Source: Deltaproteobacteria bacterium
Lineage (GTDB): Bacteria; Desulfobacterota; GWC2-55-46; DRQE01
Length of the DNA stretch: 64,000 nt
Direction of reading: 5' to 3'
Assembly (NCBI GenBank): GCA_015492245.1
Contig: WGFM01000033.1
Location: 1-64,000 of the forward strand
Shown here in pieces: positions 6,763 to 34,266 of the stretch (position 1 is its first letter; the number at the start of each line of letters is the position of its first letter). The notes beneath the pieces are model-generated. The model saw only the letters and a program-made list of their open reading frames with translations. It had not been told where the DNA came from and searched no databases. Made by a program: the position numbers and the translations under genes.

Positions 6763-7385
6763 TGGGCTGTGGCCCTGGGACACCTGATATGCTCACCATG
6801 AGGGCAAGGTCTATTATAGAACAGGCCACGGTCTGTGTGGGGGCAGAGAGGCTCCTTGAAGAGCTGGTGGACAGGGTGGGTGGTAAAAAGGTCCTGCCCC
6901 TTAGGGGCAACTACTCAGAGGTGCTCAAAGAGGCAGAACTTCTGTGGAAAGAGGGTGAGAGGGTGGTGTTCCTGGTCTCTGGAGACCCCCTTCTCTACAG
7001 CCTCGGCACGATGGTGATAGAGCGGTTCGGTAGAGACCATTGCGATGTCGTGCCAGGGATAAGCTCTGTCCAGTATGCCTTTGCAAGGCTTAAAGAGAGC
7101 TGGAATGGCTACATGGTGGTAAGCCTTCACGGTGGTAGAGGGGTAGATGTAAGAAGGCTCTTCGAAGAGGGCAGAAACCTTGCGATACTGCTCGATGCAG
7201 GGTGTAGCCTTGAGTCTATCAGGGCCATGCTCGAAGGGCTCGACCTCAGTGGCTACAGATTCTTTATGGCCGCCAACCTCTCTCTGCCTGATGAAAGGGT
7301 TGAAGAGATAGGCCTTGATGAGTTCCATAAAGGGGATATACCTTCTCTGAGCATACTCATAGCAGGAAGGAATAAGGATGGGTAG
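6738..7385 (+). CDS. cbiE: precorrin-6Y C5,15-methyltransferase, CbiE subunit
   Basis: YIVGCGPGTPDMLTMRARSIIEQA..., FLVSGDPLLYSLG; tetrapyrrole methylase fold. Confidence 0.87.
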   Translation: MDRERLYIVGCGPGTPDMLTMRARSIIEQATVCVGAERLLEELVDRVGGKKVLPLRGNYSEVLKEAELLWKEGERVVFLVSGDPLLYSLGTMVIERFGRDHCDVVPGISSVQYAFARLKESWNGYMVVSLHGGRGVDVRRLFEEGRNLAILLDAGCSLESIRAMLEGLDLSGYRFFMAANLSLPDERVEEIGLDEFHKGDIPSLSILIAGRNKDG

Positions 7386-8091
7386 GTTCTTCGGCGTGGG
7401 GCTTGGCCCCGGAGAGGCAGAGCTTGTAACACTCAGGGCATACAGGGTATTGCAGGCCGTGGATGTAATCTTCGTGCCCAGGGCAGAGGGCAGCCCCGAT
7501 GCCGCAGCAGAGAGAATCCTGGCTGCACTGGACATGGATAGCGGGAAGTTCTATCCTGTAAGTTTTCCCATGACAGGCGATGAAGCCACACTACAGGAGA
7601 GATACCGCCACACAGCACAGTGTATACTCAAAAGGCTTGGGGATGGAGATGTGGCATATGTAACCATAGGAGACCCCCTTCTTTACAGCACATACATATA
7701 TCTTCTCGATGCACTCTGTTCCCTTTCATCGGGGATTGAGATGGAGACCGTCCCCGGGATAACATCCTACAGTGCCGTGGCAGCAAGGTTCAACTATTCT
7801 CTTGCCGAAAGGTCAGAGCGTGTCTGCATATACCCTGCAACAGGCAAGATGGATGAGCTCGAAAGGGTCTTACTCTCTAACCATACCACCGTTATAATGA
7901 AGGCAGGCCGATGGCTTGAGGATATAATGGCGGTTATTGAAAGGCTGGGGCTTACTGGCAACACAGTGTTTGCAAGCCGCCTTGGGCTTGAAGGGGAGAG
8001 GCTGATGGACTTTAGGAGAGAGCCCTTCATCCAGAGTGCCAGACCAGAGGGCTATCTTTCCACCATAATAGTAAGGAGGAAGCGGGGTTGA
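7378..8091 (+). CDS. cbiL: precorrin-2 C20-methyltransferase
   Basis: GVGLGPGEAELVTLRAYRVLQAVDVIFVPRAEG...ETVPGITSYSAVAARFNYSLAE. Confidence 0.9.
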   Translation: MGRFFGVGLGPGEAELVTLRAYRVLQAVDVIFVPRAEGSPDAAAERILAALDMDSGKFYPVSFPMTGDEATLQERYRHTAQCILKRLGDGDVAYVTIGDPLLYSTYIYLLDALCSLSSGIEMETVPGITSYSAVAARFNYSLAERSERVCIYPATGKMDELERVLLSNHTTVIMKAGRWLEDIMAVIERLGLTGNTVFASRLGLEGERLMDFRREPFIQSARPEGYLSTIIVRRKRG

Positions 8092-8846
8092 AGGTATATT
8101 TCATAGGGGCAGGCCCCGGGGACCCGGAGCTTCTCACCCTCAAGGCAAAAAATATAATAGAGAGGGCAGGGATTATTGTCTATGCGGGCTCGCTTGTAAA
8201 CCGCGCCATTGTGGATGAGTATGGCAGCAGGGCAGAAAGGGTATACGACTCCTCGGGGCTCACCATAGAGGAGCTAAAGGAGATATTCAGGGAGGCAGCC
8301 TCCCTCGGGCTCGATGTTGCACGCATACACTCAGGGGACCCTTCCATCTATGGCGCCATAGCCGAGCAGATAGAGATGCTCGAAGAGCTTGGCATAGAGT
8401 ATGAGGTTGTGCCAGGTGTCAGCTCCTTTCAGCTCGCAGCAGCAAGGGCTGGAAGGGAACTTACCGTGCCGGGGCTATCGCAGACGGTGGTGCTCACAAG
8501 GGTGTCTGGCAGGACACCCGGGCCATCGCTCAAGGAGCTTTCGCAGCAGATAAAGACAAGGCCAACCCTTGTGCTCTTTCTCTCCATCTCCATGATAGAC
8601 TCCATAGTGGAGGTGCTGAAGAAGGCCTACAGGAAGGATACCCCTGTGGTGGTTGCACACAGGGTGGGCTGGAAGGATGAAAGGATGGTTGTGGGCACAC
8701 TCGATGACATAGTGGCAAGGATAAGACCCCTCTCCATGAAGAAGACCGCCCTCATAATGGTGGGAGAGGTGTTTGGCAGCAGGGGGGGCAGACAATCCAG
8801 GCTGTATGCCCCGGGGTTCAGCCATGGCCACAGAAAAGGAAGATGA
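8088..8846 (+). CDS. cbiF: precorrin-4 C11-methyltransferase
   Basis: MKVYFIGAGPGDPELLTLKAKNIIERAGIIVYAGSLV...RIHSGDPSIYGAIAEQ. Confidence 0.92.
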   Translation: MKVYFIGAGPGDPELLTLKAKNIIERAGIIVYAGSLVNRAIVDEYGSRAERVYDSSGLTIEELKEIFREAASLGLDVARIHSGDPSIYGAIAEQIEMLEELGIEYEVVPGVSSFQLAAARAGRELTVPGLSQTVVLTRVSGRTPGPSLKELSQQIKTRPTLVLFLSISMIDSIVEVLKKAYRKDTPVVVAHRVGWKDERMVVGTLDDIVARIRPLSMKKTALIMVGEVFGSRGGRQSRLYAPGFSHGHRKGR

Positions 8847-9625
8847 AGACCGCTGTAATAGCGATAACAGAGGAAGGGCTCGGGATAGGCGAGCTTCTTG
8901 CAAAAAAGACAGGCTTTGACCTCTACGCGCCGAAGAAGATAGGGGCCCACAGGGGTAATGTTGCCTCTTACGACACACCTACCTCGAAGCTTTTGGAGAG
9001 GATATGGAGCACATACCGTGGGTTCGTGTTCATAATGCCAACAGGGGCTGTGGTGAGGCTCATAAAGGGACTCATAAGGGACAAACACAGAGACCCTGCG
9101 GTTGTTGTTATGGACGAGATGGGCAGATACGCCATAAGCCTTCTTTCGGGCCACGAGGGTGGTGCCAACAGGCTTGCCGCACAGGTTGCACGCATATACA
9201 CAGGGGCAGAACCCGTTATAACCACAGGCAGGGAGGCAAAGAGACGGCTCGTCGTGGGTATGGGCTGCCGCAGGGGGGTATCGGTGGATACACTCGATGA
9301 GGCCCTAAGGGAGGCACTCACACTTGCAGCCAGAACCATCGAGGATGTAAGGCTCATAGCCACGATAGAGGCAAAGAAAGATGAGGAGGCCATACACACC
9401 CTGTCCGAAAGGTTGCAGATACCAGTGGTGTTCGTATCAGAAGGCCTTGTAGCCTCTGTGGAAGAGGGGTTCAAGAAATCAGAGGTTGTGAAACGAAATA
9501 TGGGCGTATACTCTGTGGCAGAGCCCTGTGCAATGGCTGGAGGTAAAAGATGCACCCTGATACTGCCAAAGACAAAACTGAAGGGCTGCGTAACGGTGGC
9601 CATAGCAGAGGAAGGCTCTTTGTAG
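8843..9625 (+). CDS. cbiG: cobalt-precorrin-5A hydrolase
   Basis: IMPTGAVVRLIKGLIRDKHRDPAVVVMDE..ISLLSGHEGGANRLA...VVGMGCRRGVS. Confidence 0.88.
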   Translation: MKTAVIAITEEGLGIGELLAKKTGFDLYAPKKIGAHRGNVASYDTPTSKLLERIWSTYRGFVFIMPTGAVVRLIKGLIRDKHRDPAVVVMDEMGRYAISLLSGHEGGANRLAAQVARIYTGAEPVITTGREAKRRLVVGMGCRRGVSVDTLDEALREALTLAARTIEDVRLIATIEAKKDEEAIHTLSERLQIPVVFVSEGLVASVEEGFKKSEVVKRNMGVYSVAEPCAMAGGKRCTLILPKTKLKGCVTVAIAEEGSL

Positions 9626-26427: not shown

Positions 26428-27135
26428 ATGAAAGAAAGGTGGCAGGAGCTATACGAGATGGGCAAGCGTGCCTTCACTGAGAAGAACTACGAAGAGGCCC
26501 GCACCGTCTTCGAGAAGGTTGTGCGTGCCAAGGATGACTGCGCGGATGTATACAACATGCTGGGAATAATCTACTTTATAGACAATAGATACGACGAGGC
26601 CATAAGGGCCTTCAGGAAGGCCCTCGATATAAACCCCTTCTACATAGAGGCATCGTTGAATCTCTCCATAGTGTACAACGAAACAGGTGATTTCGAGAAG
26701 GCACAGCAGGCCTATGCCGCTGCCAAGGCATCAAGTGGAAGGAGCACCAGAACATACCTCGACCCCTATGTCAAGGGAAGGCTTGCCAACAAGCATGCAG
26801 AGATAGGGGACATATACCGTGAGCTTGGTCTATACTACGATGCCGCAAGGGAATACAACATGGCACTGGCCCTGAGGGCAGACCTGGTGGATGTAAAGAT
26901 GCGGCTCGGTATGGTATACAGAAACATGGGAGACCACAAGAAGTCTGTGGCTGAACTCAAGGAGGCGAAAGATCTGAATCCAAAGTTCCTTCCAGCAAGG
27001 ATACAGCTGGGGCTCACCTACTATGCCATGGGAGAGAAGGAGAAGGCACGGGATGAATGGGCCGAGGTGCTGAAATACAATCCAAACGACAGGCTCGTCA
27101 GGATGTATCTGAAGCTGGTAGGTGTTAAGAGCTGA
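26428..27135 (+). CDS. tetratricopeptide repeat protein
   Basis: NYEEARTVFEKVVRAKDDCADVYNMLGIIYFIDNRYDEAIRAFRKALDINP. Confidence 0.85.
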   Translation: MKERWQELYEMGKRAFTEKNYEEARTVFEKVVRAKDDCADVYNMLGIIYFIDNRYDEAIRAFRKALDINPFYIEASLNLSIVYNETGDFEKAQQAYAAAKASSGRSTRTYLDPYVKGRLANKHAEIGDIYRELGLYYDAAREYNMALALRADLVDVKMRLGMVYRNMGDHKKSVAELKEAKDLNPKFLPARIQLGLTYYAMGEKEKARDEWAEVLKYNPNDRLVRMYLKLVGVKS

Positions 27136-27238
27136 CTCCTGCCTGTAAAGACCACCCCGCTTGTAGAACAGCCACCATAGGGAAGATACCACACCAGATG
27201 AGCAGATACCTGCAAGAATCATACATCAACAGTTTCTC

Positions 27239-27267
27239 TTGACATATACCTGCATTTATAGTATTTC
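27239..27267 (+). promoter_or_regulatory. putative promoter of peptide-modification cassette
   Basis: TTGACA(27239-27244)-N17-TATTTC(27262-27267); alternative TATAGT/TATGAT nearby. Confidence 0.45.
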
Positions 27268-27314
27268 TATGATAGTTTAAACACATCATCGATTCTTTCA
27301 AATCAGAAACTTTC

Positions 27315-27344
27315 TGTTGACCATCCTGAAAGAGATGGTCAACA
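27315..27344. promoter_or_regulatory. 11-bp perfect inverted repeat in cassette leader
   Basis: TGTTGACCATC(27315-27325)-N8-GATGGTCAACA(27334-27344). Confidence 0.55.
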
Positions 27345-27572
27345 TGTTCTGGAAGACAGGTCAGCTGGCAACATTCCTGCCCCTTGTGAGTGTCTCATCC
27401 TTGTTTTCGTTTTCTGAAGGACCTGTTTCTGTGTTATAGGCATTCGTTGAAGGTTTTATAAGTGGCTTCCTGCGCTGGCAGTGCCGGAAGGTGTGTGGCA
27501 GAGGGTTCGTGGAAGATGGGCTTCCATGGGGTAGCTTCAGTGAGAACAAAAAAGAGTAAAGGAGGTGGAGTT

Positions 27573-28067
27573 ATGTCGAGACAGGAACCTGTGGCACTAA
27601 AGTATCTTATGTGCAGCAAAGAGGCGGAAGAGCTGATGGAAAGAGGAGAGAGGGTGGCTCTTAAGTATCTTATGTGCAGTAGAGAAGGCCAGATGGGCCT
27701 CAAGGATGCGGTTGCTCTCAAGTATCTTATGTGCAGCAAGGAGGCCGAGGGGCAGATAGACAATAACGAGCCTGTGGCACTGAAGTACCTGATGTGCAGT
27801 AGAGAGATGAGCTCAATAGAAGCAAAGGACGCAGTTGCGCTTAAGTATCTGATGTGCAGCAGAGAGGCTGACGATATGCTCGCACGGGGTGAAAGCGTTT
27901 CGTTAAAGTATCTGATGTGCAGCAGAGAGGCAGGCGAGATAAACCCTGAGGCAGCGGTGGCGTTGAAGTATCTTATGTGCAGCAGACCGATAGATGAGCT
28001 CTCAAGGGGTGGAGACACCGTTGCACTCAAATATATCATGTGCAGTAAGGAACTGGAGGAAAAGTAA
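27573..28067 (+). CDS. repeat-containing RiPP-like precursor peptide, 164 aa, eight V[AS]LKY[LI]MCS[KR] motifs
   Basis: RBS AAAGGAGGTGGAG before ATG 27573; repeats begin at 27591, 27654, 27711, 27774, 27834, 27897, 27957, 28020; every Cys and every aromatic residue lies in a repeat. Confidence 0.85.
   Translation: MSRQEPVALKYLMCSKEAEELMERGERVALKYLMCSREGQMGLKDAVALKYLMCSKEAEGQIDNNEPVALKYLMCSREMSSIEAKDAVALKYLMCSREADDMLARGESVSLKYLMCSREAGEINPEAAVALKYLMCSRPIDELSRGGDTVALKYIMCSKELEEK
27591..28067 (+). repeat. eight in-frame imperfect coding repeats, 57-63 nt period
   Basis: Protein motif near-invariant while Leu/Ala/Val codons differ between copies (e.g. GCA CTA, GCT CTT, GCT CTC, GCA CTG, GCG CTT, TCG TTA, GCG TTG, GCA CTC). 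Confidence 0.95.
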
Positions 28068-28160
28068 CGGAGGCAGACAGAAAGTTCCACTCTTCGGTTG
28101 AGACAGTCCACGAATCCTCTTCACACAAACCCGGGTTTAAAGGACAGGAGACAGGCAGTA

Positions 28161-29570
28161 ATGGGTAACATGGCTGGTATAATGCGTTTTTTAGCAAGGG
28201 AAGGCAGCATACGGTTGTCCCATCAGCTCCATGTCTCGGAGCTTGCACCTGGCTGGAAGGGGGTCTACAGCCCCTTCGGACACAGGGTGGCATTCGTCTT
28301 CCATGAGGCATGGGAGGCACTCACCAGAAGAGAGTTCCACAGGGTGAGCCCACAGATGCTGGAATATCTCGTTGAGAACAACATCCTTGTGGAACAGGGC
28401 TTCGAGGAAAGATGGCTCAGGGAAAACCTTCCATCTTATCAGGTGGGTTTCAACTCCATGTACCTTGTGGTAACGCAGGGATGTAACTTCGGATGCAAGT
28501 ACTGTGCAGTAGTTGAGAATATAGACTCTTCAGAGCGGTTGAAGGAGAAGATGAGCCCTGAGACAGGTAAGAAGGCTGTGGAGTTCTTCGCCAGAGAGCT
28601 CAGGATAAGCAACCCACCCGATGCCAGGGTAACATTCTATGGTGGAGAACCCATGCTCAACAAGGAGCTCATCTTTGAACTGGTGCCACGCATAAAGGAG
28701 ATAAGCTATCCTGGCCAGACACAGGATGTGGAGGTTGTGATGATAACAAATGGCTATCTATACGATCCCAACCTTACAGAGCTGTTCAAGGAGTATGGAG
28801 TCGGTGTGTGCCTATCTCTTGATGGGACAAGGCGCCACCAGGATGCAACACGCGTTACACGGGACGGCAGACTGCCAACCTTCAACCGTGTTGTAGAGAA
28901 CTTCCGCAGATACAGGGACGCTGGACTCTCCATGGGTGTATCGACTGCACTGGGAAGTCACAATGTGCGAGACCTCAAAGAGATAAGTCTTTTTTATGCA
29001 GAGCTTGGTGCCCACTTTGTGGAATTTCAGATTCCCTACCAGGTTGCAAACGAGAGCAACCTGTTCTGGGTTTCAACAACAGAGCTTACAGGCTATCTCA
29101 TGGATGCCTATGAGACACTCAGGACACATAACATAGTGGAGGGAACGACCTATCGGCGTCTGAAAGACTTCGCCACAGGAAGGATACATACCAGAGACTG
29201 CGGGGCAAACGGTAACCAGCTCGTTGTGGCACCAGATGGCTCCATTGGACCATGCCACAGTCTGGTTGGAACGAGGAAGTTCTTCGAAGGAAATGTGAGA
29301 GAGCCCTGTAACCCGAGGAAGATGAAGAATTTTACCGAATGGGCAGCCAGGTTTCCGCTCAACATGGCAATATGCAAGGGATGTCCCTACATCTCGCTGT
29401 GTGGAGGTGGATGCACATACAACAGTTACATATCTACCGGCACCATATGGAACAAGGACCCCCAGGTGTGCGAATATATGAAGGGCATGGTGGACTGGAT
29501 ACTGAAGGACCTCTGGAAGGAGACGGGCATGGAAGCAAGATACGGCAGTATCGAGCAAAAAGAGGGGTAG
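28161..29570 (+). CDS. radical SAM/SPASM peptide maturase
   Basis: TQGCNFGCKYCAVVE (CxxxCxxC); SPASM-type Cys: DCGANGNQLVVAPDGSIGPCHSLVG...CKGCPYISLCGGGCTYN...CEYM; ATG 28161 preferred, ORF open from 28098. Confidence 0.88.
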   Translation: MGNMAGIMRFLAREGSIRLSHQLHVSELAPGWKGVYSPFGHRVAFVFHEAWEALTRREFHRVSPQMLEYLVENNILVEQGFEERWLRENLPSYQVGFNSMYLVVTQGCNFGCKYCAVVENIDSSERLKEKMSPETGKKAVEFFARELRISNPPDARVTFYGGEPMLNKELIFELVPRIKEISYPGQTQDVEVVMITNGYLYDPNLTELFKEYGVGVCLSLDGTRRHQDATRVTRDGRLPTFNRVVENFRRYRDAGLSMGVSTALGSHNVRDLKEISLFYAELGAHFVEFQIPYQVANESNLFWVSTTELTGYLMDAYETLRTHNIVEGTTYRRLKDFATGRIHTRDCGANGNQLVVAPDGSIGPCHSLVGTRKFFEGNVREPCNPRKMKNFTEWAARFPLNMAICKGCPYISLCGGGCTYNSYISTGTIWNKDPQVCEYMKGMVDWILKDLWKETGMEARYGSIEQKEG

Positions 29571-29571
29571 G

Positions 29572-30960
29572 ATGGGGGTGAGGCTTGCGCTTGTTGAACC
29601 GTATGTGTCTGTGGATTCCCTAAGGGCTTATGCTGACAGGTGCGAGCCCTCCCATCTGGTGGGCATGTATAACCTGCTCAAAGCCGCTGACTGCGATGTA
29701 ACCTTGATAGATGCCTACAGCAACAACCTTTCTGTCAAAGGGCTCGTCGGGCGTCTCGTTGAAGAGGGTATTACCCATGCAGGTTTCACAGTATACGACT
29801 ACACCCCCTGTGTGAGCTACATGCAGAAGGTCTTCGAATACCTGCCCGGTGGTATTACCACAATCGTTGGAGGTCCTGGGGCAACCTACTGCACAGAGAG
29901 GATTGTTGAACTGCTCAGGCCAGACTGGCTCGTCAAGGGTGAGGGTGAGGATGCCATCATTGGCCTCTACAGGGCAGGATTCTCCAAAGAAAAGCTCGAT
30001 GCCATGGGCTACCGCACTTCTCTGCGTGGCCGTACTGCTGTAGTCTCCTCAAGGCAGCTACCCTTCGATGATATACCGTTTGAGCGCCCATACGGACTGG
30101 AACGCTATCACTATCAGGCGTCCCTACGGGTTCAGAGAGGATGTGTTGGCAGATGTGTCTTCTGTTCAGGTGCGTACCAGAAGGAATTTGACTACATGAG
30201 CACTTCTCTTGCGAGAAGGCTCATGGACCATCTTGTCTTCCAGAAGTCCGCAAAGGTCATAGCACCAAGCGGGCCCGATTTTACCACCCTGCCACACAGG
30301 GCGAATGATATAGTGCGGGTCATACTGGAAGGTGGGCTCGACTTTCATTCCTTCAGGCCTGGTGTAAGGCTCGATACACTGTCCGTTGCACTGAAACAGG
30401 CTCCTTCTTTATGGCAGAGACTTTCAGAGCGTTACAGTGTAAGCATGGAGTCTTCGATAGAGTCCTTTTCTCCAGCAAGGCTCAGGCGCCTTGGCAAGAA
30501 TGTGTCTGAGGATTTTTTCAACAGCATATTCAAGCTCCTCCAGGAGATATTCAACAGATGTAACTGCACCATAGTTCTTGGAAGGATAGCCATAGACCCT
30601 ACAATGACCATAGATGAGTTCATAACAGACTGTCAGGGTTTCAGAAAACTCATCGAAAGATTCGGCAACCGTGTTACAATAGGCGGTATGCTTATGAACC
30701 AGTTCATCCCCCTTGAGGGTACCCCTGCAACAGAAGTGTCAGATTCTACCAGCAATCACTGGCTTCTGCCAGAGCCTGCAGACCCGCTCATGGCAGCCCT
30801 GAAGAGAGAGTTTCTCGATGACAGAAGGTTCAGAACATGGTGCATGCTTGCAGAGAGGCTCGATGACTTCAGCGAGCGTAATATGGTCTTCCATGAGATT
30901 TTAAGAGTAGCAGAAAGAGAGGCAAGGGAGATAAAGAGAAGGTGTGTGCTGAAGGACTGA
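29572..30960 (+). CDS. radical SAM protein with B12-binding-like N-terminal domain
   Basis: N-term LALVEPYVSVDSLRAYADRCEPSHLVGMYNLLKAADCDVTLIDAYS..THAGFTVYDY..IVGGPGATYC..KGEGEDAI; then RVQRGCVGRCVFCSG (CxxxCxxC). Confidence 0.85.
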   Translation: MGVRLALVEPYVSVDSLRAYADRCEPSHLVGMYNLLKAADCDVTLIDAYSNNLSVKGLVGRLVEEGITHAGFTVYDYTPCVSYMQKVFEYLPGGITTIVGGPGATYCTERIVELLRPDWLVKGEGEDAIIGLYRAGFSKEKLDAMGYRTSLRGRTAVVSSRQLPFDDIPFERPYGLERYHYQASLRVQRGCVGRCVFCSGAYQKEFDYMSTSLARRLMDHLVFQKSAKVIAPSGPDFTTLPHRANDIVRVILEGGLDFHSFRPGVRLDTLSVALKQAPSLWQRLSERYSVSMESSIESFSPARLRRLGKNVSEDFFNSIFKLLQEIFNRCNCTIVLGRIAIDPTMTIDEFITDCQGFRKLIERFGNRVTIGGMLMNQFIPLEGTPATEVSDSTSNHWLLPEPADPLMAALKREFLDDRRFRTWCMLAERLDDFSERNMVFHEILRVAEREAREIKRRCVLKD

Positions 30961-31613
30961 ATCCTCTCAAGGTGGACTCTGTTGCAGCAAGGCTTCGCTG
31001 CCCCCCACAGATGGAACACAGAAGAGTCGAGTTTGCAACCATGGTTGTAGATGCCTACAGTATTGTTAGAAGGTTCGCCGTAGACCATCAATACGGGGCA
31101 CACCTTGAGCCGTCCCTTTTCGGCTCCGTTGAGATATTTGCTACAGAGGAGAAGCTCATACAGAGGCTTTCCTCTGTTACCACCCTTCCTTGCAGAAGGC
31201 CTGAAGGAGAGGTTCTCTGTGCAGCGCTTGTGTCGGCTGTGCTGATGGCAGTAACGCCAGAGGAATACGCCAGCTTGAGACCCGAGTATGCTTCAATAGA
31301 CAGGGCATGGACGAGACTTCTGGCACACGAGATGGCACACGAACTTCACAGCAGAGTGGCGGGTGGACAGGAAAGCATGGGACCAAGATGGTTCTATGAA
31401 GGGTTCGCCATGTATGTGGCAGGCCAGTTCTTCCATGAGAAGGTCTCAACGGCTGAGGAAGCAGGGGCTGCAATAGCTGCCACATCTCGTGGTTCCTATG
31501 CAAAATATGTGGCTGCCTTCAGGTTCTTTGTTGAAAGGCTGGGCATTAAGCAGTTGCTCGCTCATGCCCACAGAAAGGGGTTTGAAGAATGGCTGTTCGC
31601 ATCCCTTAAATGA
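30942..31613 (+). CDS. cytosolic HExxH metalloprotease (gluzincin-like), putative precursor-processing peptidase
   Basis: LLAHEMAHELHSRVAGGQESMGPRWFYEGFAMYVAGQFF (HExxH plus downstream Glu); no signal peptide; GTG start overlaps upstream stop. Confidence 0.75.
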   Translation: MCAEGLNPLKVDSVAARLRCPPQMEHRRVEFATMVVDAYSIVRRFAVDHQYGAHLEPSLFGSVEIFATEEKLIQRLSSVTTLPCRRPEGEVLCAALVSAVLMAVTPEEYASLRPEYASIDRAWTRLLAHEMAHELHSRVAGGQESMGPRWFYEGFAMYVAGQFFHEKVSTAEEAGAAIAATSRGSYAKYVAAFRFFVERLGIKQLLAHAHRKGFEEWLFASLK

Positions 31614-31623
31614 TGAGTCGGCT

Positions 31624-34266
31624 CTATCGCAACATCTTTCTTACAAACTCGGTGGTCCTTTCAACGGCCGATTTCACCTTATCTGTCGCCTTGCCACCTG
31701 CCTGTGCCATGGTGGGTCTTCCTCCACCACGGCCACCTATGATGGGGGCAAGCTCTTTTATAAGACCTGTGGCAGGCACCTTTTCTGCAAGATCCTCTGT
31801 TACAGAGGCTACAAGTGTTGCCTTATCATTACTGCTCGTTCCAAGAACCACCACGCAGGATTCAAGCCTCTGGCGTATGACATCGGTGAGCCTCCTAAGC
31901 TCCTCCACCTCTGCCTCCTCGAGCACGCCGGTTACAACCCTTATGTCTTCAACGGTCTTTACATTATCGAGCAGTGTTGAGGCAATGTCTTTCTTCTCCC
32001 TGTGTGCTGCTCTCTTGAGTTCTGCCTCGAGCTCTCTTTTCTCCTCAAGAAGTCTCTTTATACGCTCTGCAGTCTCCTCTGGCCTTGTGTTGAGGATCGA
32101 GGCAAGCTCTTCAATCAGCCTGTGGGCATTGTAGAGTTCCCTGAAGGCCATCTCGCCCGTGAGTGCCTCTATCCTTCTTATGCCAGAGCCGACAGATCCC
32201 TCCTTAATTATCTTGAACAGCCCCATGTCAGAGCTTCTCCTCACATGGGTTCCACCACAGAGTTCCTTGCTGACATTGTTCACAGACACGACCCTTACCA
32301 TGGACTCGTATCTTTCGCCAAAGAAGGCAAGGGCTCCCTTCTCCATGGCCTTGTCGAGGGTCGTCAGTTCCACCGTTACCTCGAGGTTCTTCCTTATGAT
32401 TCGGTTCACCTCTTCCTCTATTCGTTCTATGTCCTCCCGGCTGAGGGGAGAAAAATGTGTGAAGTCGAACCTGAGCCTGTCAGGGGCCACAAGAGAGCCT
32501 GCCTGTTTTACATGCTCACCGAGGAGCCTTCTCAACACACTGTGGAGTACGTGGGTTGCCGTGTGGTTGCGGGCTATGGACTCCCTTCGTTCTATGTTTG
32601 GCGCAAGCTCCACCCACATGCCCTTCTTGAGTGTGCCTTCCTTTACGGTGCAGATGTGGGTTATGATTTCTGGAACAGGTCTTTTTGTATCGAGCACTGT
32701 AACAGAGAGGTCTTTGCCCACAATGACCCCCGTGTCTCCCACCTGGCCACCTGACTCACCATAGAACGGGGTCTCCTCTGTTATAAGCTCCACGCTATCA
32801 CCTGCCTCTGCCATGTCCACAGCCATGCCACCCTTAAGTATTGCCACCACCCTGGAGGATGTAACCTCTTCGTGGTAGCCAACAAACTTGGTCTCCACAC
32901 CCTCTTCGACGAGTTCCCTGTAGGTGCGCTCCTCTTCTCCCAGGGCCTCTCCCTTCCATGCCCTTCGTGCCCTTTCCTTCTGTTCTGCCATCTCTCTGTT
33001 GAACCCCTCGGTATCCACCCCTATGCCTTCGTTCTTGAGTATGTCCTCGGTGAGGTCCAGAGGAAAGCCGTAGGTATCGTAGAGTTTGAAGGCAACGGGG
33101 CCTGGAAGCACCTTCGCCCCTTCCTTCTTAAGCCTTTCCACCTCTTCGGTAAGTATGGAGAGCCCGCGCTCCAGGGTCTCGAGGAAGCGTTCCTCCTCTG
33201 TGAGGGTTATCTGTTTTATGATGGACTCGGATCTTTCGAGCTCTGGATAGGTGCTGCCCATGAGGTCTATAACAGATGGCACGACCCTGTGGAGGAAGGG
33301 TCCTTTCAGCCCGAGCAGGCTCCCATGGCGTACCGTTCTTCTTATGATACGCCTCAGCACATAGCCTCTGCCCTCGTTGGATGGGAATATGCCCTCTGCT
33401 ATGAGGAATGCCGTGGCCCTTGCATGGTCTGCCATGGCGCGTATGGATATGTCTTTCTGGTGGTCCTTTCCGTAGTCAACAGAGGTGAGCCCTTCTATCT
33501 CTTCTATAATGGGTATGAAGAGGTCTGTATCGTAGTTGCTCTTCTTGCCCTGGAGTGCTGCTGCGATGCGCTCGAGCCCCATGCCGGTATCTATGCTGGG
33601 GTTTGGCAGCGGCTCAAGGCTTCCGTCGGGCTGGCGATTGTATTCCATGAACACAAGGTTCCACAGCTCGAGGTATCTATCGCAGTCGCATCCAGCGGTG
33701 CATGTGGGCCTGCCGCAGCCAGCCTCCTCACCCTGGTCCATGAGTACTTCTGAACAGGGCCCGCAGGGGCCTGTATCTGCCATGCTCCAGAAGTTGTCCG
33801 CCTCTCCCATGCGCACGACCCTTTCGGGAGGAAGCCCTATCCTATCTATCCAGAGCCTTTCTGCCTCATGGTCCTCCTCGAAGACCGTTGCCCACAGCCT
33901 TTCCGGAGGAAGTCCTGCCACACGGGTAAGGAACTCCCAGGCATACTGGATAGTCTCTTCCTTGAAGTAGTCGCCAAAGGAGAAGTTTCCCAGCATCTCG
34001 AAGAAGGTGTGGTGCCGTGCGGTGTAGCCCACATTCTCGAGGTCGTTGTGTTTCCCGCCCACGCGCATACACTTCTGGCAGCTTACAGCCCTGGTGTAGT
34101 CTCTTTTTTCCTCGCCAAGGAATACCCCTTTGAACTGCACCATCCCTGCGTTGGTGAAAAGGAGGGTGGGATCACTCTGTGGCACAAGCGATGAAGAGGG
34201 AACCACCCTGTGCCCCTTCGAACGGAAGTATTCGAGGAAAGCATTTCTTATCTCATCGGCCCTCAT
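31624..34266 (-). CDS. alaS: alanyl-tRNA synthetase
   Basis: IRNAFLEYFRSKGHRVVPSSSLVPQSDPTLLFTNAGMVQFK; C-terminal GGRGGGRPTMAQAGG. Confidence 0.97.
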   Translation of the reverse strand: MRADEIRNAFLEYFRSKGHRVVPSSSLVPQSDPTLLFTNAGMVQFKGVFLGEEKRDYTRAVSCQKCMRVGGKHNDLENVGYTARHHTFFEMLGNFSFGDYFKEETIQYAWEFLTRVAGLPPERLWATVFEEDHEAERLWIDRIGLPPERVVRMGEADNFWSMADTGPCGPCSEVLMDQGEEAGCGRPTCTAGCDCDRYLELWNLVFMEYNRQPDGSLEPLPNPSIDTGMGLERIAAALQGKKSNYDTDLFIPIIEEIEGLTSVDYGKDHQKDISIRAMADHARATAFLIAEGIFPSNEGRGYVLRRIIRRTVRHGSLLGLKGPFLHRVVPSVIDLMGSTYPELERSESIIKQITLTEEERFLETLERGLSILTEEVERLKKEGAKVLPGPVAFKLYDTYGFPLDLTEDILKNEGIGVDTEGFNREMAEQKERARRAWKGEALGEEERTYRELVEEGVETKFVGYHEEVTSSRVVAILKGGMAVDMAEAGDSVELITEETPFYGESGGQVGDTGVIVGKDLSVTVLDTKRPVPEIITHICTVKEGTLKKGMWVELAPNIERRESIARNHTATHVLHSVLRRLLGEHVKQAGSLVAPDRLRFDFTHFSPLSREDIERIEEEVNRIIRKNLEVTVELTTLDKAMEKGALAFFGERYESMVRVVSVNNVSKELCGGTHVRRSSDMGLFKIIKEGSVGSGIRRIEALTGEMAFRELYNAHRLIEELASILNTRPEETAERIKRLLEEKRELEAELKRAAHREKKDIASTLLDNVKTVEDIRVVTGVLEEAEVEELRRLTDVIRQRLESCVVVLGTSSNDKATLVASVTEDLAEKVPATGLIKELAPIIGGRGGGRPTMAQAGGKATDKVKSAVERTTEFVRKMLR

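Follow-up and report, generated by a model that had tools for sequence, protein, structure and literature searches.

A four-gene block encoding an eight-unit repeat protein, two radical SAM enzymes and a gluzincin-like protease: a candidate leaderless multicore radical SAM peptide pathway

Organization of the locus

The window analyzed here is a 64,000-nucleotide stretch of a Deltaproteobacteria bacterium genome (contig WGFM01000033.1, positions 1 to 64,000), and all coordinates are window positions unless stated otherwise. Between a TPR protein gene and alaS lie four consecutive genes, all on the + strand as a preliminary description of this DNA had reported, together with the following features:

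27136–31623: apparently gained block, flanked by the TPR gene and alaS, which adjoin each other in six relatives
27315–27344: perfect 11-bp inverted repeat, TGTTGACCATC-N8-GATGGTCAACA, about 230 nt before the precursor gene
27573–28067, + strand: repeat protein gene (164 aa), an ORF with a strong ribosome site and eight cores; proposed leaderless multicore precursor
27591–28049, + strand: stretch from core 1 through core 8, V[AS]LKY[LI]MCS[KR], with a period of 19–21 aa
28161–29570, + strand: radical SAM/SPASM enzyme (469 aa), thioether-maturase-like by profiles that all score below cut-off
29572–30960, + strand: B12-type radical SAM enzyme (462 aa) with a predicted N-terminal B12-binding domain (PF04055, PF02310)
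30942–31613, + strand: HExxH gluzincin-like metalloprotease (223 aa; HEMAH and WFYEGFA), with a GTG start
31624–34266: alaS, convergent, closing the four-gene block

The start of the HExxH gene overlaps the end of the B12-type radical SAM gene, and the block ends as first described, with the HExxH gene stopping at 31613 and the convergent alaS beyond it. The ATG of the precursor gene is preceded by AAAGGAGGTGG, a strong ribosome site and the strongest of the four genes. No exporter or transporter and no regulator is present among the four genes.

The preliminary description also placed a promoter-like element of its own ahead of the block, a claim that we now regard as weak and unsupported: TTGACA at 27239 is a perfect hexamer, but the hexamer 17 nt downstream is TATTTC, and a promoter scan listed nothing on the + strand ahead of the precursor gene. 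The inverted repeat at 27315–27344 is present in a single copy genome-wide, even allowing up to 3 mismatches, and is possibly an operator or an mRNA hairpin. Rfam identifies no element in the 5′ region of the precursor gene, and the RNA fold of this region is unexceptional (z −1.6). GC skew is strongly positive (0.21–0.24) at 27000–28500, which spans the precursor gene and its upstream region, and exceeds that of the surroundings.

The repeat protein

The product of the first gene contains the motif V[AS]LKY[LI]MCS[KR] eight times, in agreement with the initial reading, at spacings of 21, 19, 21, 20, 21, 20 and 21 residues. The K, Y, M and S residues of the core are invariant across units; [KR] is followed by Glu in 7/8 units and by Pro in the eighth, the Glu standing three residues past the invariant Cys (C-x-x-E). 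The spacers between cores are variable and acidic. The first core begins at residue 7, and with only six residues ahead of the first unit the precursor lacks an N-terminal leader or any segment of leader length.

Comparison of the eight cores in all pairs (Nei-Gojobori) gives pS = 0.735 and pN = 0.039, and one core leucine position uses six codon forms while the peptide is fixed. Because synonymous sites are saturated and the protein is almost invariant, the repeat peptide is under strong selection; the repetition of the motif is beyond chance and selection acts on the peptide itself. An LKY[LIM]MCS DNA pattern has eight matches genome-wide, all of them inside the repeat gene.

Profile searches with the precursor yielded no family match that we accept. 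Matches to PHROG 7816 (4e-11) and to Pfam EGF_BRNP (5.9e-7, with no single passing stretch) were judged to be repeat artefacts. A literature search returned no paper matching LKYLMC, and likewise none for FibroRumin, a radical SAM system discussed below.

The modifying enzymes and the protease

The three downstream products correspond to the earlier assignments of a radical SAM/SPASM protein, a radical SAM protein with a B12-binding-like N-terminus, and a soluble HExxH protein. The first of these has the radical SAM triad CNFGCKYC at residues 108–115 and a complete set of SPASM cysteines (7/7, scored against the pattern CX9-15GX4C, CX2CX5CX3C, C): C-X12-G-X4-C at 347–365, CX2CX5CX3C at 405–418, and C437. 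The Pfam SPASM match is only 17 bits against a cut-off of 21.5. Among NCBIfam profiles the best is FibroRumin TIGR04136 at 172 bits (cut-off 400), and the PapB ranthipeptide maturase NF047865 (148 bits, cut-off 340), QhpD (133 bits, cut-off 453) and the SCIFF maturase TIGR03974 (121 bits, cut-off 425) also score. Judged by sequence, the enzyme thus appears related to the thioether-type maturases, all four profiles describing enzymes whose substrates contain Cys, and with scores below every cut-off it belongs to none of these families.

The closest solved structure is CteB (5wgg/5why), both by sequence (5e-24) and by fold (Foldseek 5e-18, from a model with a pTM of 0.69), and ChlB, anSME and TigE are the other top solved relatives by sequence and fold. 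RRE or PqqD-like recognition domains are common in radical SAM RiPP systems. The N-terminal 97 residues of the SPASM enzyme have no Pfam match and no recognizable RRE or PqqD domain, and this region is modelled poorly, with low confidence; since 98 residues precede the CteB alignment in the SPASM enzyme and 97 in CteB, there is space for a CteB-type RRE.

The B12-type enzyme has the motif CVGRCVFC at residues 191–198, a radical SAM core (PF04055, E 1.4e-10) and a marginal B12-binding match (PF02310, E 1.6e-7, 31.6 bits against a cut-off of 32.1), from which cobalamin binding is predicted. No named family comes close to it (best NCBIfam score 28 bits), and its AlphaFold model, made without an alignment, has a pLDDT of only 34.5. 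Many of the substrates on which B12 radical SAM enzymes are known to act are not peptides, so the substrate of this one could likewise be something other than a peptide. Elsewhere in the window a cobalamin riboswitch is found at 2148–2344 on the + strand (Rfam 121 bits), followed to about 6762 by an apparent cobyric acid synthase, a CbiX/CobH-type fusion and CbiD, as read from their translations. The riboswitch and the cobalamin-synthesis-like genes of the host are in line with a B12-dependent enzyme.

The HExxH protein contains HEMAH at residues 129–133 followed by WFYEGFA at 150–156, the latter providing a gluzincin-like third ligand, and with an HExxH motif and a downstream Glu it is predicted to be a gluzincin. 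No family passes its cut-off in Pfam or NCBIfam; weak matches below cut-off are to Peptidase_MA_2 (0.013) and flagellinolysin (5e-6).

Gain of the block and search for relatives

In six relatives from six genera the TPR gene lies next to alaS, with gaps of about 30 to 215 bp against 4.5 kb in the window. In a relative from the same genus the TPR protein is 94% identical and the last matching codons are only 42 bp apart. As the flanks adjoin in all six, the simplest history is that the whole 4.5-kb block was gained in this lineage. No integrase, transposase or tRNA was seen within the block. Its G+C content equals that of the flanks (0.50–0.52), and its codon usage is somewhat less host-like (0.61–0.66 versus 0.69–0.77, the reference being the flanking genes themselves).

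Searches of 117 relatives, 63 genomes from the class and 395 from the phylum found no orthologue of the SPASM enzyme; every match was 26–28% identical. For the B12-type enzyme, 297 genomes from the phylum, plasmids and viruses likewise yielded no orthologue, and for the HExxH protease neither 97 relatives nor plasmids did; beyond the phylum, relatives of the enzymes were sought among plasmids and viruses only. A genome of the same order (G037:C108) has two adjacent SPASM-type radical SAM genes, 26–27% identical to the window enzyme. A possible anti-phage role was considered and dropped, the similarity to viperins being of a generic radical SAM kind.

With the LKY[LIM]MCS-type pattern, the repeat gene was found nowhere else in 395 phylum genomes, and single matches in four other genomes of the phylum were judged to be chance. 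A query with the repeat protein matched nothing in viral contigs, where a two-repeat pattern gave two matches, both chance. A three-repeat scan of genome_contigs (84,980 species), a motif pattern demanding KYxxC-like repeats at set spacing, found no true repeat gene; its sole match, an AT-rich repeat interrupted by stop codons in every frame, was attributed to chance. Homologous repeat proteins with or without radical SAM neighbours were thus looked for and none was found, and the co-occurrence is known from one locus. The locus is real, under selection and self-contained, and is without close relatives within the collections searched.

Comparison with known systems

Radical SAM RiPP precursors usually consist of a leader and one core, an N-terminal leader being usual and not universal. 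The window has a small precursor gene beside a peptide-modifying radical SAM gene (27573–28067, then 28161–29570) as is typical of these systems, and its repeat protein is leaderless. FibroRumin (TIGR04136), the best SPASM profile, likewise has its small precursor genes directly upstream (Campylobacter plasmid p16187MP2), but the window SPASM enzyme is 28% identical and far below the cut-off. FibroRumin precursors are 55 aa long with one Cys-rich core and no 20-aa repeats, and no B12 enzyme is annotated beside the maturase on p16187MP2. On a Campylobacter plasmid (L019, 5514–7236) a tandem pair of FibroRumin Cys-rich precursors is followed by the maturase, and the next gene encodes a long hypothetical protein (7223–9316).

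PapB and CteB (SCIFF) have a radical SAM domain and a 7-Cys SPASM domain in common with the window enzyme, which misses their cut-offs. Their precursors consist of a leader and one core region and, unlike the window block, their systems include no B12 enzyme. PapB forms Cys-Asp/Glu links and accepts C-Xn-D substrates with n = 0–6 (PMC9413430), and a C-x-x-E thioether is therefore chemically plausible. QhpD/PeaB, the quinohemoprotein amine dehydrogenase maturase, is the third-best profile, also below cut-off; QhpD forms Cys-Asp and Cys-Glu thioethers (PMC8326336), and its substrate is a single enzyme subunit.

A radical SAM RiPP precursor made of repeats has been described in TvgA, which is composed of TVGG repeats and belongs to the cyclopropylglycine-forming TvgB system (PMC9062424). 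Its short repeats are modified singly by a radical SAM enzyme, as proposed for the window precursor, but they are contiguous four-residue repeats rather than 20-aa units, the chemistry is aliphatic C-C, and the locus contains a dioxygenase and transporters where the window block has the B12 enzyme and the protease. M1- and M61-type metalloproteases take part in RiPP pathways (PMC10885120).

A proposed pathway and its alternatives

We consider it probable (roughly 0.7) that the block makes a radical-SAM-modified peptide product from an almost all-core precursor. The best reading of the pathway is a leaderless multicore radical SAM RiPP or peptide-derived cofactor that is new in its precursor and in its enzyme set. 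The RiPP-type system of the preliminary description fits the gained operon, the selection on the peptide, the thioether-like SPASM enzyme and a precursor that matches no family; its chemistry, its product and the release of eight identical units are kept here as suggestions. From their adjacency at this one locus, which is the sole basis, we infer that the enzymes act on the repeat protein, and we infer likewise each chemical step, the cleavage and how the product is used. In this scheme the acidic spacer of every 20-residue unit would supply the residues by which that unit is recognized, and the SPASM enzyme would oxidize each LKYLMCS unit, most likely by linking the invariant Cys through a thioether to a neighbouring residue, either the C+3 Glu or the core Tyr or Lys, by analogy with PapB. 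The B12 enzyme may C-methylate or otherwise tailor the same units, and the gluzincin could then cut the spacers intracellularly, freeing up to eight near-identical modified peptides. With no transporter in the block, the product is more likely to be a cofactor or metal ligand used inside the cell, or else to leave through general export systems.

More tentatively, and at somewhat less than even odds, the block may represent a new pathway class in which the units of a leaderless eight-fold precursor are cross-linked by the SPASM enzyme, methylated by the B12 enzyme and freed by the gluzincin as numerous copies of a small KYxMC-derived redox or metal-binding compound. The locus stands out for a precursor that is nearly all core, its eight copies near-identical despite saturated silent sites, and for combining two different radical enzymes with a protease of its own in a compact insert. 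If confirmed, the pathway would extend the known precursor architectures, probably reveal a new peptide modification, and show by what means leaderless multicore substrates are recognized; the size of the four-gene block permits its expression whole.

The product might also be a small peptide-derived cofactor or metal ligand in which just a few residues of each core, K-Y or M-C, are retained in cross-linked form, by analogy with PQQ or mycofactocin, the eight copies then amplifying the yield. This reading falls within the best explanation, from which sequence cannot separate it, and is unlikely as a specific outcome: the operon has a protease and no exporter, and Lys-Tyr and Met-Cys pairs are conserved in every unit, but no PqqD-like or dehydrogenase-like partner lies within the block, and PQQ and mycofactocin precursors have one core each. 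We think it improbable that the substrate of the two radical SAM enzymes and the protease is encoded elsewhere, with the repeat protein as carrier, decoy or regulator. Although adjacency is the sole link between substrate and enzymes and relatives provide no comparative support, the four genes are tightly spaced in one gained block, the repeat gene stands first with the strongest ribosome site, and repeated Cys-containing units beside a thioether-maturase-like enzyme are the usual substrate pairing.

About equally improbable is a structural reading, in which the repeat protein would be a degenerate Cys-ladder leucine-rich repeat (LRR) with a scaffold or binding role and the radical SAM enzymes would serve other substrates or modify it to a marginal extent. 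Whether the motif belongs to a known structural repeat family had been raised at the outset, and a weak similarity to Cys-ladder LRRs of the internalin J type does exist: an L-x-x-L-x-C strand and a period of about 21 aa are in common, and there are matches to internalin J 3bz5 (phmmer, E 9e-5), to NCBIfam InlJ (0.029) and to an Enterococcus Cys-ladder LRR (tblastn, E 2e-3). The defining positions fail, however. Against the pattern LxxLxLxxNxL (Asn at position 9, Leu at 11), the Asn-ladder position is Asn in 17/17 repeats of the Enterococcus protein and in 0/8 units here, and the next hydrophobic position is Leu, Ile or Met in 17/17 and 0/8, respectively, such that the repeat protein has neither an Asn ladder nor a second hydrophobic row. 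The surface positions K, Y, M and S, free to vary in an LRR, are invariant, and Pfam reports no LRR family for the repeat protein at E 0.1. Shuffling the core destroys the score, whereas shuffling the spacers mostly preserves it (mean 23.8 versus 31.9 bits, with 15/200 as high), and the spacers therefore add little LRR signal. The LRR likeness thus appears limited to L-x-x-L-x-C with a similar period, and we do not class the repeat protein as an LRR.
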